Assembly: GCA_027039975.1 (NCBI GenBank)
Contig: JALWFE010000128.1
Location: 1 to 64,000, forward strand
Reading direction: 5' to 3'
DNA: 64,000 nucleotides
Origin: Flavobacteriales bacterium
Lineage (GTDB): Bacteria > Bacteroidota > Bacteroidia > Flavobacteriales > Flavobacteriaceae
Shown: in pieces, positions 10,759 through 63,272 of the stretch
Layout of the letters: each line of letters starts with the position of its first letter
Position numbering within the stretch: position 1 is the stretch's first letter
Position numbers and translations under genes: made by a program
Notes under the pieces: model-generated
Databases searched by the model: none
Told to the model about the DNA's origin: nothing
Seen by the model: the letters and a program-made list of their open reading frames with translations, nothing else

Positions 10759-10789
10759 TGATAGATGCTTGTTTATTAGATGTACTCAT

Positions 10790-10899
10790 TCTTTCCACTA
10801 GGTACTTTCAACTTTCTCTTTCGCACTAGGCACTTTCCACTAGGCACTTTCAACTAAATTATCATTCATCCCTTATCCCTTATCCCTTATCCCTTATCC
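10790..10899. repeat. Drifting tandem words: CACTAGGCACTTTCC followed by perfect heptad CCCTTAT x4 (10870-10899)
   Basis: Direct reading of the sequence. Confidence 0.9.
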
Positions 10900-11015
10900 A
10901 ACATGCTACTTATTACTAATACGCACTTTCCACTTTCCGCTTTTCACTATAAAAAATTACAATTACTTCGTATGTTTTTTATATCTTTACAGTTATAATT
11001 AAATCAAACTTGAAA

Positions 11016-20190: not shown

Positions 20191-20204
20191 TTTTGTTATT
20201 TGGT

Positions 20205-20394
20205 TAATCGGTTATCTGGTTATCTGGTTGTTCGGTTATTTGATGTCGGATGTCGGGTGTCGGATGATTTGTCGGATGTCCGAAGTCTGATGTCGGATGT
20301 CATTTCGAACGAGTGAGGCACGAACGAGGAGAAATCTCATTTTCAATTATCCCTTATCCCTTATCCCTTATCTTTTATCCCTTATCTCTTATCC
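20205..20394. repeat. Mosaic of drifting words: GGTTATTTG, GTCGGAT, GTCATTTCGAACGAG, CCCTTAT
   Basis: Direct reading; fills nearly the whole DUF4290/DUF493 intergenic gap. Confidence 0.88.
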
Positions 20395-20409
20395 AATCCT
20401 CACTTTCTA

Positions 20410-39941: not shown

Positions 39942-40091
39942 AATGTTATTTTTGACAAAGATAGTTATAAATAGTTGAAAGTTGAAAGTTAAAAGTTAAA
40001 AGTTTCAGGGCAGACGCACCATAATTATTTGAGAATTTTACAAAATGTTAGTTTAATCAAATTGTAATGACTTGCAAATTCCTTAATATCA

Positions 40092-40155
40092 GCTCCGTAG
40101 GAGCATATCGTTTGTAGCAAGACAAGTTAATGATAACAAATAGCTCCGTAGGAGC
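40092..40155. repeat. Two copies of the palindrome GCTCCGTAGGAGC (40092-40104, 40143-40155)
   Basis: Identical perfect inverted repeats 51 bp apart. Confidence 0.8.
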
Positions 40156-40192
40156 GACCTATAACTTGCGTTATTGATAATTTCATTAGGTC

Positions 40193-40261
40193 ACCCCGAT
40201 GGGGTTTTATTGTGTTGTGATGGCATTATATTCTACTACAAGCAGGATGCCCCTACGGGGC
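40193..40261. repeat. REP-like palindromes ACCCCGATGGGGT (40193-40205) and GCCCCTACGGGGC (40249-40261)
   Basis: Perfect or near-perfect stems in AT-rich intergenic DNA. Confidence 0.8.
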
Positions 40262-40443
40262 TAAAAGAATTATTTTAATTTTTTATAGTGCGTTTGTCCT
40301 TGTTAAAAGTTACGGTTCATATTATAATTGTGCTTTTGATTTGAGGAATGGGGAGTAAGGAAATCAGGAATTGTTTTGATTTTTGATTTTGTGACTGCTG
40401 TCATTTTTGAACGTTGGTATCTCTATTTACTACTTACATTTAA

Positions 40444-40530
40444 ACATTACAAACTTTATGAACATTACAAACTTTATGAACATTACAAACTTTATGAACA
40501 TTACAAACTTTATGAACATTACAAACTTTC
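40444..40530. repeat. 18-bp tandem repeat (ACATTACAAACTTTATGA), about 4.8 copies
   Basis: Four perfect units 40444-40515 plus a partial unit containing the GNAT gene stop codon. Confidence 0.95.
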
Positions 40531-43186: not shown

Positions 43187-43203
43187 TTGAAGTCGTACAG
43201 ATC

Positions 43204-43216
43204 ACCCCTACGGGGT
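43204..43216. repeat. REP-like palindrome ACCCCTACGGGGT
   Basis: Perfect stem, repeated at 43413-43425. Confidence 0.8.
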
Positions 43217-43242
43217 TTTATTGTCCTGTACGATATTTTATG

Positions 43243-43345
43243 CTACTAACAGGACGCACCTACGGCGCTCAATGGTTTTTCTTTATTGTTTCACCTACTA
43301 ACAGGACGCACCTAAAGGCGCTCAATGGTGTTTTTTTATTGTTTG
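43243..43345. repeat. 52-bp-period direct repeat (CTACTAACAGGACGCACCTA..GGCGCTCAATGG..TTTATTG), two copies
   Basis: Copies begin at 43243 and 43295. Confidence 0.85.
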
Positions 43346-43355
43346 TCGTGATATC

Positions 43356-43376
43356 AGACGCACAGGTTGTGCGTCT
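43356..43376. repeat. Perfect hairpin AGACGCACA-GGT-TGTGCGTCT
   Basis: 9-bp perfect arms; related to 26565-26612. Confidence 0.8.
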
Positions 43377-43412
43377 CTACAAACATTATGAACATTTACC
43401 TATAATAATGTC

Positions 43413-43425
43413 ACCCCTACGGGGT
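43413..43425. repeat. REP-like palindrome ACCCCTACGGGGT
   Basis: Identical to 43204-43216. Confidence 0.8.
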
Positions 43426-43683
43426 TCTATATTTTTTATTGTCTTTTATGTCCTTTTATGTCTTTTATGGTTAATAAAAATCCTCATTTCCTCAAATTAT
43501 AAGTAGAAACAATGTATGAAGTAATAAGTAATCATCAATAAACGACATAATCTTTGAAGCACAACAAATCCTCAATTCCTCAATTTAAAAGCAGGATTAC
43601 CGTTTGAAGCAATAAACAATCATCAAAGCCCAAAATATTCTATGAAGCACAACTTTCAACTTTTAACTTTCAACTAATTAACG

Positions 43684-43691
43684 TATTTTTG
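43684..43691 (+). promoter_or_regulatory. -7 box TATTTTTG for the kinase gene
   Basis: TAnnTTTG 22 bp before ATG 43713. Confidence 0.55.
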
Positions 43692-43712
43692 CCAAAATAA
43701 AACATCTCAACT

Positions 43713-55129: not shown

Positions 55130-55368
55130 TGATATGGTTAAAATGGTTATTTGGTTATTTGGTTATTTGATGATTTGGTTATTTGTTGTCGGATGTACGA
55201 TGACCGATGTCCGTTGTCCGATGTATTTTTCATTTCAGATTTCAGATTTTTTTTGGTTACCGAGTGATTTTGTGACGTTAGGAACAAAATTGTACCGAGG
55301 TACAGATTTTCAAACGTTGCGGTGCAATGTCTCTACAAACTTTCAACTTTTAACTTTTAACTATAACC

Positions 55369-60372: not shown

Positions 60373-61761
60373 CTATAAAAATTTTTTTTTGATTTCAGTT
60401 ATCATATCATACGCCAATTTTTCAGCTTGTTCTTGTGAACGTGCCTCCGAATAAATCCGGATTATCGGCTCTGTGTTCGATTTGCGGACTTGCACCCACG
60501 AATCGTTAAAATCTATACGTAAGCCGTCTTGTGTGTCAATTTCGGCATCCTTGTATTTTTCTGTAAAATAAGCAATGACTGACTCCAAATCAAAACCGCG
60601 TGTAACCGTCAATTTATTTTTACTCATAAAATATGACGGATATGTTTGCCGCAATGCCGACAAAGATTGAGCACTTTCTGCCAAATAAGACAGAATTAGA
60701 GCAATACCGAGCAAAGCATCTCTTCCGGCATGCAATTTGGGATAAATGACCCCTCCATTGCCTTCTCCGCCTATAACGGCATTGATTTCCCGCATTTTTT
60801 TCACCACATTGACTTCGCCGGTTTTGGCTTTATAATACTGAACCCCATAACGGTCTGACAAATCCTTTAAAGCTCTGGACGAAGACAAATTGGACACCGT
60901 ATTCCCCGGATTTTTTGACAAAATATAATCGGCAACTGCTACTAATGTATATTCTTCCCCGAACATTTGACCGTTTTCATCTATCAATGCCAAACGATCT
61001 ACGTCAGGGTCCACAACGATACCCAAGTCCGCTCTGGTTTCCGCAACCCGTTGCATAATATCTTGCAAGTTTTTTTCAAGCGGTTCGGGGTCGTGTTGAA
61101 AGTTGCCGGACACATCACAAAAAAGACAATCATAACTGACATTCAAAGCTTCTAACAATTTGGGAATAGCCAAACCGCCGGTCGAATTAATAGCATCAAC
61201 AACCACTTTAAATCCGGCTTTTTTTATGGCGTCCGTTTGCACTTCATCCATAGACAAAATGGCGGCAATATGCTCATCGATATAACCGTTTGATTTGGTT
61301 TCTATCCGGCCCAAATCATCTACTTCGGCATAATTAAAATCATTTTTTGCTATGATATCCAATAATTTTTGTCCATCGGTTGCCGATAAAAATTCCCCTC
61401 GGTCGTTGAGTAATTTTAAAGCATTCCACTGTTTCGGATTGTGACTGGCTGTTAAGATAATACCACCGTCTGCTTGCAAACCGGTTACGGCCATTTCCAC
61501 AGTCGGAGTTGTGGACAAACCCAAATCCACGACATCAATTCCCAAACCGGTCAGCGTATTTTGAACAATATTTTGAATCATAGGACCCGACAAACGGGCA
61601 TCTCTGCCAATAACAACTTTTAGATTTTTATTTGAAAATTTATCCTGCAACCAAGTTCCGTAAGCCGAAGCGAATTGAACGGCATCCAAAGGGGTTAAAT
61701 TATCGCCGGGACGACCTCCAATCGTGCCGCGGATTCCCGATATGCTTTTGATTAGACTCAT
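60373..61761 (-). CDS. glmM: Phosphoglucosamine mutase
   Basis: 'SISGIRGTIGGRPGDNLTPLDAVQFASAYG', 'GGIILTASHNPKQWNALKLL', 'DPDVDRLALIDENG', 'GGEGNGGVIYP'. Confidence 0.93.
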   Translation of the reverse strand: MSLIKSISGIRGTIGGRPGDNLTPLDAVQFASAYGTWLQDKFSNKNLKVVIGRDARLSGPMIQNIVQNTLTGLGIDVVDLGLSTTPTVEMAVTGLQADGGIILTASHNPKQWNALKLLNDRGEFLSATDGQKLLDIIAKNDFNYAEVDDLGRIETKSNGYIDEHIAAILSMDEVQTDAIKKAGFKVVVDAINSTGGLAIPKLLEALNVSYDCLFCDVSGNFQHDPEPLEKNLQDIMQRVAETRADLGIVVDPDVDRLALIDENGQMFGEEYTLVAVADYILSKNPGNTVSNLSSSRALKDLSDRYGVQYYKAKTGEVNVVKKMREINAVIGGEGNGGVIYPKLHAGRDALLGIALILSYLAESAQSLSALRQTYPSYFMSKNKLTVTRGFDLESVIAYFTEKYKDAEIDTQDGLRIDFNDSWVQVRKSNTEPIIRIYSEARSQEQAEKLAYDMITEIKKKFL

Positions 61762-61781
61762 TTTTAAGTTAGTTAAATGTT

Positions 61782-62085
61782 GAAAGTTGAAAGTTATTTT
61801 TATTGGTTATCTGGTTATTTGGTTATTTGATAGTCGGATGTCGGATGTATTATTCATTTTAAATTTTATTTTTTACCACAGAGTGATGCACTGAGCTTGT
61901 CGAAGTGCGGTCACTGAGCCTGTCGAAGTGTCCATTTTCAATTATCTCTCATCACTTATCCCTTGTCTCTGTATCTCTTATCCAACTCGCACTTTCTTCC
62001 ACATTACCGCTTCAATTACTGAACTTGTCGAAGTATCCACTAGGCACTAGGTACTTTCCATTAGACACTTTCCACTTCCCTTTCC
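61782..62085. repeat. Mosaic of six drifting-word families upstream of glmM
   Basis: TTGAAAGTTGAAAGTT, GGTTATTTGG, GTCGGATGTCGGATG, CTGAGCTTGTCGAAGT, CTTATCCC, CACTAGGCACTAGG. Confidence 0.88.
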
Positions 62086-62099
62086 TTGCTTCAAAAATA

Positions 62100-63272
62100 C
62101 TAAAATTCATTAAATACCAACATTTTTTCCAAAGCCGTTTTCAAATTGCTTTGAGGCGTGGCAATATTCAAGCGGAAATAATTTTCACCGTTTTGTCCGA
62201 AAGATTTACCGTCGTTGAGGGCTAATTTGGCTTGATTTATCAAAATATCTTTAACTTTATCATGTGGTAAATTCAATCCTGAAAAATCCAACCACATTAA
62301 AAAAGTACCTTCGGGCTTTACAGGTTTGATTTCAGGTATATGTTCAGCCAGATAACCGGTCACAAAATCGATATTAGTTTGTAAATATTTTAACAATTCC
62401 TCGAGCCATGCTTCACCTTTTTTATAAGCCGTTTCAAAAGCGATATTCCCGAAAATATTGCCGAGAAAAAGATGCATATCTTTAATTTTATTCCGGTATT
62501 TTTGTCTTAAATTTTCATTGGGAATAACAACAATCGACGTAGATAATCCGGCAATATTAAAAGTTTTACTTGGAGATGTAACAGTTACTGTTTGTTGTGC
62601 CACTGCTTCATCGATACTTGCCAAAGGTGTGTATTGATTAGGTTTGTAAATAAAATCCGCATGAATATCGTCAGAAAGAATAATAAGATTGTGTTTGACG
62701 GCAATTTCAGCCAATTCTTCCAACTCGTCCCTGCGCCATACCCGCCCGACGGGATTATGCGGATTGGCAATAATAATCATCTTGGTTTGCGGATCAATGA
62801 TGCTTCGCATGTGGTCAAAATCCATACGATAATTACCTTCTGCATCCCTTTGTAATGGATTTTCAATCAATTGACGAGCGTTTCCTTTAACCACATCAAA
62901 AAACGGATGATATACCGGCGGCTGTATGATGATTTTGTCTCCTTCGCCGGTCATACTCAAAACCGACAAAGCCAAGCCACCTACAACTCCCGGACTGAAA
63001 TCGAGCCACTGACGTGACACTTTCCAACGGTAACGCTTTCTTGCCCAACGCATATAACTTTCAAAAAAACCTTCTTGACGCATCGTATATCCCAAAACGG
63101 GATGTTCCAAACGTTTTTTGATAGCATCCAAAATAAAATCCGGTGTGGCAAAATCCATATCGGCGACCCAAAGTGGTTGTAAGTCATCACGACCAAAGAA
63201 AAAAGACATCTTATCGTATTTGATACTACCGGAACCCTTGCGATCAATCAGCCGGTCGAAATTGTAATTCAT
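62100..63272 (-). CDS. MalY/PatB family pyridoxal-phosphate aminotransferase (C-S lyase-like)
   Basis: 'MNYNFDRLIDRKGSGSIKYDKM', 'LQPLWVADMDFATPDFI', 'IANPHNPVGRVWRRDELEELAEI', 'SPSKTFNIAGL'; ATG at 63272. Confidence 0.92.
   Translation of the reverse strand: MNYNFDRLIDRKGSGSIKYDKMSFFFGRDDLQPLWVADMDFATPDFILDAIKKRLEHPVLGYTMRQEGFFESYMRWARKRYRWKVSRQWLDFSPGVVGGLALSVLSMTGEGDKIIIQPPVYHPFFDVVKGNARQLIENPLQRDAEGNYRMDFDHMRSIIDPQTKMIIIANPHNPVGRVWRRDELEELAEIAVKHNLIILSDDIHADFIYKPNQYTPLASIDEAVAQQTVTVTSPSKTFNIAGLSTSIVVIPNENLRQKYRNKIKDMHLFLGNIFGNIAFETAYKKGEAWLEELLKYLQTNIDFVTGYLAEHIPEIKPVKPEGTFLMWLDFSGLNLPHDKVKDILINQAKLALNDGKSFGQNGENYFRLNIATPQSNLKTALEKMLVFNEF

Follow-up and report, generated by a model that had tools for sequence, protein, structure and literature searches.

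An ordered, polar mosaic of short tandem words, of a type dispersed among intergenic gaps, between glmM-like and aminotransferase genes of a Flavobacteriales bacterium

Short repeats between bacterial genes have usually been put down to slippage noise or taken for binding sites. Cyanobacterial STRR sequences are degenerate 7-bp units of intergenic location and lineage-specific vocabulary; to our knowledge, an ordered composite is not part of their definition, nor do we know of tandem words as a part of REPINs. In Xanthomonas and Nostoc, the G-rich intergenic heptamers GGGAATC and GGGGA(C/T)T, respectively, lie within 0-50 bp of genes of any direction, on the non-coding strand upstream and on the coding strand downstream, and about 70 convergent pairs of GGGAATC were reported in Xanthomonas (Rehm et al., 2015; PMC4692102). 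Direct repeats of TAACTGA were described in Beggiatoaceae, Cyanobacteria, and some Bacteroidetes, with 147 of 170 sets directed toward a start, other heptamers mixed in by a few Bacteroidetes, and shorter, repeat-free gaps in relatives (MacGregor, 2015; PMC4679880). In Porphyromonas gingivalis, the MITE BrickBuilt contains a 23-nt minisatellite with the unit AGAYCATARTATCCTCTCRTRTG together with a leader, a tail, and terminal inverted repeats (PMC4596501). Heptamer arrays near starts (PMC4679880) and the gene-edge strand bias of a G-rich word (PMC4692102) are already published. Meanwhile, a multi-word ordered composite with fixed facing to transcription and insertion into near-touching junctions was not found in the open-licence literature, where earlier descriptions may exist, and the statement of the first-pass annotation that no named mechanism accounts for the whole pattern proved right.

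The stretch of DNA analyzed here (the window, 64 kb) is a portion of a 72.6-kb contig in an assembly of 2.16 Mb and 140 contigs. The gap at 61762-62099 lies between two minus-strand genes, namely, a glmM-like phosphoglucosamine/phosphomannomutase gene (60373..61761), whose ORF carries all four PGM_PMM Pfam domains and whose start codon forms one edge of the gap, and a malY/patB-like class I/II aminotransferase gene (62100..63272), whose stop codon forms the other. Most of the gap is occupied by a mosaic of words, and every word quoted in the first-pass annotation was located, a few bases at most from the interval 61782-62085 that it had given. A plus-strand gaaagtt array in the G orientation (TTGAAAGTTGAAAGTT, 61780..61795), reading AACTTTCAACTTTCAA in the glmM sense, lies just 5' of the start. 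It is followed on the same strand by an 8-mer array of ggttatt (GGTTATCTGGTTATTTGGTTATTTG, 61805..61829; in sense CAAATAACCAAATAACCAGATAACC) and a 7-mer array of gtcggat (GTCGGATGTCGGATG, 61833..61847; in sense CATCCGACATCCGAC), which form the outer and inner words, respectively, of the A end. The center is held by the plus-strand pair CTGAGCYTGTCGAAGT (61891..61929; in sense ACTTCGACARGCTCAG), whose members CTGAGCTTGTCGAAGT (61891-61906) and CTGAGCCTGTCGAAGT (61914-61929) are spaced by 23 bp. On the minus strand, the B end consists of an inner gggataa/gagataa region (61943..61983; in sense GGATAAGAGATACAGAGACAAGGGATAAGTGATGAGAGATAA) with CATCACTTATCCCTTG from 61950 and CTCTTATCC at 61975-61983, and of outer cctagtg/ggaaagt words (62038..62079; in sense GGAAGTGGAAAGTGTCTAATGGAAAGTACCTAGTGCCTAGTG), where CACTAGGCACTAGGTACTTTCC at 62038-62059 precedes CACTTTCCACTTCC; a third, diverged copy of the central word, CTGAACTTGTCGAAGT, is found on the plus strand at 62019..62034. 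At the far edge, the minus-strand TATTTTTG (62092..62099) matches the motif TAnnTTTG, the -7 promoter consensus of Bacteroidota, and marks a putative promoter.

The same 338 bp were found letter for letter in another species (G004), which makes an assembly error unlikely. They lie there inside a segment of 10.8 kb at 99.4% identity (58140-68899 in window numbering; G004:C66, L054), and the two species are otherwise ~75-85% identical. A second block shared with G004 spans 6.7 kb at 95% (C125:24582-31238 of the own genome). Blocks so far above the genome-wide identity point to recent exchange of DNA between the species.

Like the Xanthomonas and Nostoc heptamers, the words here form intergenic heptamer arrays with the same gene-edge strand bias. 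Those systems, however, each use a single quadruplex-capable G-tract word, whereas at least ten words, mostly without G-tracts, are arranged here in a fixed order with a central repeat pair. GAAAGTT, GGTTATTT, and GTCGGAT lack a run of three G, and only GGGATAA has one; with words mostly of this kind, the bias must have a general cause other than quadruplex formation. The mosaic also resembles the TAACTGA repeats in being composed of heptamer arrays mostly aimed at start codons; the TAACTGA study, in contrast, concerned one word and described no ordered composite, left/right rule, or measured insertion into operon-like junctions. With cyanobacterial STRR the mosaic shares degenerate 7-bp intergenic units, although the word sequences differ. 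BrickBuilt is likewise a Bacteroidota intergenic composite with tandem repeats, and the central (CTGAGC) pair is also spaced 23 bp, but the 23-bp-spaced unit here is CACTGAGCYTGTCGAAGTGCGGT instead of AGAYCATARTATCCTCTCRTRTG, and neither BrickBuilt's unit nor its leader, tail, or terminal inverted repeats were seen.

The gap content was compared with that of relatives. At the glmM junction, G008, G005, G011, G012, G009, and G001, among about seven relatives compared, have a gap of ~13-60 bp devoid of words, and the TAnnTTTG motif is kept at the end of the neighboring gene in G008 (TATTTTTG), G005 (TATTTTTG), G011 (TATATTTG), and G012 (TATCTTTG). Here, the mosaic sits between the promoter-like motif and the glmM start, which are separated by ~310 bp. 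The short gaps and the motif retained in four relatives thus suggested that ~310 bp had been inserted between the two. Since several relatives share the short state at glmM, insertion in this genome, rather than deletion in the relatives, is the probable direction, judged from shared states and not from a dated tree. In G002 and G007 another gene is the neighbor, and yet ggttatt adjoins the glmM start and C-form words lie at the far side. When 98 orthologous gaps were compared with G001, the word gaps (n = 22) had a median of 308 bp against 90 bp in G001, 10 of the 22 being 1-24 bp there, while the word-free gaps (n = 63) measured 108 and 102 bp, respectively (word versus word-free, p = 3.5e-7). 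From these alignments, the mosaics are net insertions, often into what appear to be operon-like junctions of 1-24 bp. One divergent gap, C125:11666, opens with ~130 bp that can be recognized as the beginning of the G001 gap, after which the composite follows. No insertion with precise junctions was found, as even the best relatives have diverged so far within the gap that a target duplication would not be visible. Gene order was conserved with G001 at 17 of 22 word gaps and at 32 of 50 others (77% versus 64%, p = 0.41); this adjacency, not lower at word gaps, ruled out mosaics as rearrangement breakpoints, and gene-rearranging crossing-over was not seen.

The words are not a product of chance. 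The central word CTGARCYTGTCGAAGT occurs in 80 copies in the 2.16 Mb and GGTTATYTGGTTATYTG in 117 copies, with no copy of the reversed control in either case. Gap statistics were drawn from ~750 kb of the genome, sampled in stretches, with genes called by a simple hexamer-based caller. Several word 8-mers are 10-70 times commoner in gaps than predicted by a Markov model and are rare in coding DNA, and ~7-bp tandem units are enriched in gaps over coding DNA; a de novo search for tandem arrays of periods 5-9 returned periods 7 and 8 almost exclusively. The first-pass annotation had held that the families share the same small set of gaps and had named chance after control for gap length as its refutation. 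With the presence of each family modeled on gap length, 34, 20, and 13 of 416 gaps contained at least four, five, and six families, respectively, against 12.5, 3.2, and 0.6 expected. The excess survives the length control, so that gap length does not explain it, and the claim stands. The families fall into a type I vocabulary (ggttatt, gtcggat, ggaaagt, cctagtg, ccaagtg, gggataa, and the CTGAGC word) and a type II vocabulary (gaggaat, gaatgag, and ttgatga), which are nearly exclusive of each other (e.g., gtcggat and gaggaat together, 0 observed and 3.7 expected); gaaagtt occurs with both. Many word gaps are devoid of the CTGAGC pair. Type II mosaics consist of long arrays of TGAGGAAT/TGAGGAAG/GAAATGAG units, as in C39:16839-17458, C96:46566-46917, and others of the own genome. 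Within one genus (G000-G012), copies of the GGTTATYTG dimer range from 0 (four species) to 117, and in 395 other genomes sampled from the phylum there is at most one per genome. Word arrays were often located at contig ends (G010:C22:8-56, G000:C2:8-24, and others), which suggests that mosaics probably break short-read assemblies and that the counts are lower bounds.

Unlike single-word arrays without higher order, the type I words form an ordered composite, with ggttatt (outer) and gtcggat (inner) making up its A end and ggaaagt, cctagtg, and gggataa its B end. In sense, the order runs from the stop of the upstream gene through ggaaagt/cctagtg, ggataag, the paired CTGAGCTTGTCGAAGT, atccgac, and aaccaaat to the start of the downstream gene, and composites printed in sense accordingly read stop - GTTGAAAGTGGAAAGTGCCTAGTGG - GTTGGATAAGGGATAAGAGATAAGGGATAATT - GACACTTCGACAAGCTCAGTGACC (or another central element) - CATCCGACATCCGACACCCGACATC - CAAATAACCAGATAACC - start. 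The glmM gap fits this scheme, with extra gaaagtt words adjoining the start. An A end stands opposite a B end in 19 gaps of the own genome, and no A|A or B|B gap was encountered. The A end adjoins the start of the downstream gene in all 16 codirectional composites of the own genome and in 8 of 8 in G004; ggttatt arrays are aimed at the start codon in 49 of 51 cases at a median distance of 18 bp, and of 47 codirectional occurrences of the central word, 40 share one orientation in sense. The central modules are exchangeable among the CTGAGC pair, a GTTCGAAATGA element, and a 'CTCTGTGG...AATAATA' element. In the second type I composite of the window (minus strand, 20191..20409), for example, with A words on the left and B words on the right, an AT-rich-flanked GTTCGAAATGA replaces the pair; the orthologous junction in G001 is 16 bp. 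The type I-like A|gaaagtt gap at 55130..55368 (plus strand) is the sole codirectional gap in which A words adjoin the stop of the upstream gene. One contrary entry in a relaxed listing, the gap C41:26727, is 1731 bp long and shows two stray matches to words and no composite. Order and facing as strict as these speak for a common copying process rather than for repeats piled up at random. Stop codons in every frame were considered as a reason for the facing, and the words as read, AACTTTC and ATCCGAC, contain none, so that this is not a general reason. An inverted-repeat or hairpin origin was ruled out as well: the left and right halves of gaps paired no better than halves taken from different gaps (permutation p 0.99), and the sense RNA of the mosaic folded no better than shuffled sequences (z = +0.97). 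No Rfam family matched the mosaic.

A further regularity was independent of transcription. On the top strand, the G-rich form of a word lies near the left gene and the C-rich form near the right gene, regardless of the strands of the genes, and G-words lie to the left of C-words in 74 of 75 gaps with both orientations in the own genome, G004, and G001. This polarity was first noticed in the window, so that a held-out sample and other species constitute the fair test. Both-orientation gaps conformed in 20/20 cases in the discovery sample, 21/22 in the held-out sample, 24/24 in G004, and 9/9 in G001, the last two sharing ancestry with the own genome and hence being only partly independent. Gaps with a single orientation mostly conform (38:9, 31:9, 37:12, and 10:3 in the same order), as in the B-word-only gap at 10759..11015 (plus strand; ACTTTCC/ACTAGGC/ATCCCTT), where the C orientation prevails throughout. 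The rule also holds in de novo arrays of periods 5-9 without chosen words (p = 2e-7 and 9e-10 in two samples of the own genome), at starts and at stops alike, with 76 of 97 arrays in agreement at stop-codon edges. Gaps without words show no skew resembling that of the G- and C-words, and this ruled out a general base skew of gaps as the cause. As in the bias reported by Rehm et al. (2015), the G-rich strand points from the adjoining gene into the gap, whether the gene begins or ends there. Type II mosaics (gaggaat, ttgatga) obey the polarity and have no sense preference, from which it follows that copying alone fails to explain a polarity common to all families; the occurrence of the same bias in Xanthomonas and Nostoc (PMC4692102) suggests that its cause reaches beyond a single composite family.

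Segments of the mosaics recur in different gaps. In 270 pairs of gaps, at least 45 bp are shared at 88% identity or more, the longest segment being 216 bp at 97.7% between unrelated gaps. Among codirectional pairs, 75 of 82 agree in the sense of their type I segments; type II segments have no preference (14 versus 14 of 28 pairs). The ends of type I segments fall at words in 87% of cases against 56% expected, which lends weak support to crossover at words since differences in array copy number also break alignments there. The gap at 55130-55368 differs wholly in content from its counterpart in G004 except for a 30-bp word array common to both at the right edge, while the flanking genes are 97-100% identical; such a difference between near-identical flanks indicates that mosaics are exchanged or turned over quickly. 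A ~300-bp element with inverted ends (CAGGGCAGACGCACCATA ... TATGGTGCGTCTGCCCTA) was also observed at 39942-40518 of the window, C125:43754-44209, and C22:4901-5323, its copies being 89-95% identical. The copy at C125:43754 interrupts a GTTGAAAG array, and the orthologous G004 locus lacks this copy; judging from these copies, the element is likely a MITE with word arrays as its target. In the window gap at 43187-43712, a 53-bp unit is repeated (43243-43344), 88 bp are imperfectly duplicated (43478-43653), and CCCCTACGGGG palindromes occur.

Several mechanisms involving an enzyme were assessed. The first-pass annotation had proposed a search for reverse transcriptase or RAYT-like genes correlating with the words, and no correlation emerged across 13 species of the genus: the richest genomes, G000 and G003, carry neither in intact form, and some word-free or word-poor species carry RVT_1/Y1_Tnp genes. 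Either enzyme as the driver was rejected on these draft assemblies. No RVT_1 match was found in the own genome or in the word-rich G003, and no intact Y1_Tnp gene in G000 or G003, the two genomes richest in the GGTTATYTG word; as these are draft assemblies, such absence is not absolute. The own genome (assembly 97% complete) holds a single Y1_Tnp fragment of 59 codons (23 bits) with an internal stop. The pairing of a reverse transcriptase with an adjacent template RNA that defines DRT10 thus finds no counterpart in the own genome or G003. REPs, BIMEs, and REPINs resemble the central pair as high-copy intergenic repeats sometimes paired at a fixed spacing; their copies, however, alternate in orientation, and REPINs pair inverted palindromes, whereas the CTGAGC pair is a direct repeat in a genome without an intact RAYT gene. 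As to MITEs, which are marked by terminal inverted repeats and a target-site duplication, neither constant ends nor inverted halves were detected among the composites, the exact junctions being blurred by diverged relatives.

Taken together, net insertion, order, polarity, and dispersal of the type I mosaic are observed features, and copying at shared words with slippage best fits the order, sense, and dispersal. We therefore favor, at a probability of about 0.55, the reading that the glmM gap holds one copy of a dispersed, ordered, polar composite (type I mosaic) spread by phrase copying and slippage. A composite of 7-8 bp tandem words round the central CTGAGCTTGTCGAAGT pair would have entered the space between promoter and start codon of glmM and so lengthened a short leader to a predicted ~330 nt. 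Homologous recombination or template switching at shared words would likely transfer copies of whole phrases between gaps, 7-8 bp slippage would afterwards alter the copy number of words, and crossovers at matching words in matching orientation would hold order and facing constant. Between codirectional genes, only copies with the A end beside the start codon would persist; most simply, the opposite facing may be selected against, or incoming copies may be matched to sequence already beside starts and stops. Nothing indicates a coding content of the mosaic itself, and we think it mostly a tolerated spacer that may influence the leader of the gene downstream.

The first-pass annotation had regarded such gaps as hotspots that independently accept many repeat modules. 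The strong clustering of families beyond gap length and the exchangeable central modules agree with that view, but independent gain predicts random order and facing as well as A|A or B|B gaps, of which there were 0 of 19, and the two vocabularies avoid each other; with fixed order and polarity and phrases of up to 216 bp shared at 97.7%, a dispersed composite replaces it, and we consider hotspots quite unlikely. Functional leader and trailer signals, in which upstream C-words and downstream G-words are kept for UTR roles (sites for the ribosome or RNA-binding proteins, or insulation of translation) as proposed for the Beggiatoaceae TAACTGA, would be in keeping with the aim and short distance of ggttatt arrays at starts, with the one-way facing of type I composites relative to transcription, and with the repeats reported just upstream of starts (MacGregor, 2015; PMC4679880). 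Start-site signaling does not, however, predict the polarity at stop-codon edges, the RNA showed neither better folding nor an Rfam match, word-free sister species have the same genes without the words, and whole sets of words have come or gone between flanks that are nearly identical, all of which renders this explanation unlikely as well, if somewhat less so.

Elements of the REP/REPIN or MITE type moved by a RAYT or other transposase, with the words as by-products, would account for the 80 copies of the central word and for the MITE-like elements with inverted ends in the same gaps. Given the broken Y1_Tnp fragment, the failure of Y1_Tnp to track the words within the genus, gap halves that are not inverted repeats, the many word gaps without the CTGAGC pair, and the lack of constant ends, we regard them as very improbable. 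Still less credence is given to strand-specific addition of G-rich units, telomerase-fashion, to 3' ends at an intergenic break with subsequent joining of the ends, even though two extended 3' ends would produce exactly this polarity independently of gene direction, insertion at the junctions is net, and telomerase-like repeat synthesis is known in bacteria (DRT10, PMC12632851); both word-rich genomes searched lack RVT_1, the fixed order of different words and the long shared phrases point to copying of existing sequence, and healing of breaks does not predict one-way facing relative to transcription. It is also conceivable, albeit doubtful, that a general unnamed process in several phyla builds or copies gene-edge repeats such that, at either side of a gap, the G-rich strand leaves the gene in the 5' to 3' direction; intergenic DNA ends could, for example, be repaired or extended in a strand-specific manner.

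The left/right rule, the fixed word order, and the preferred facing are constraints on any explanation of these repeats; as full accounts, random accumulation, quadruplex formation, and simple start-site signaling all fail them. Since word-rich and word-free species occur in one genus, and near-touching junctions face mosaics of 200-570 bp, the origin of the repeats is directly testable by comparison of strains. If the general process were true, a single origin would underlie the heptamers of Bacteroidota, Xanthomonas, and Nostoc, with the composite described here as the most elaborate product of that process.
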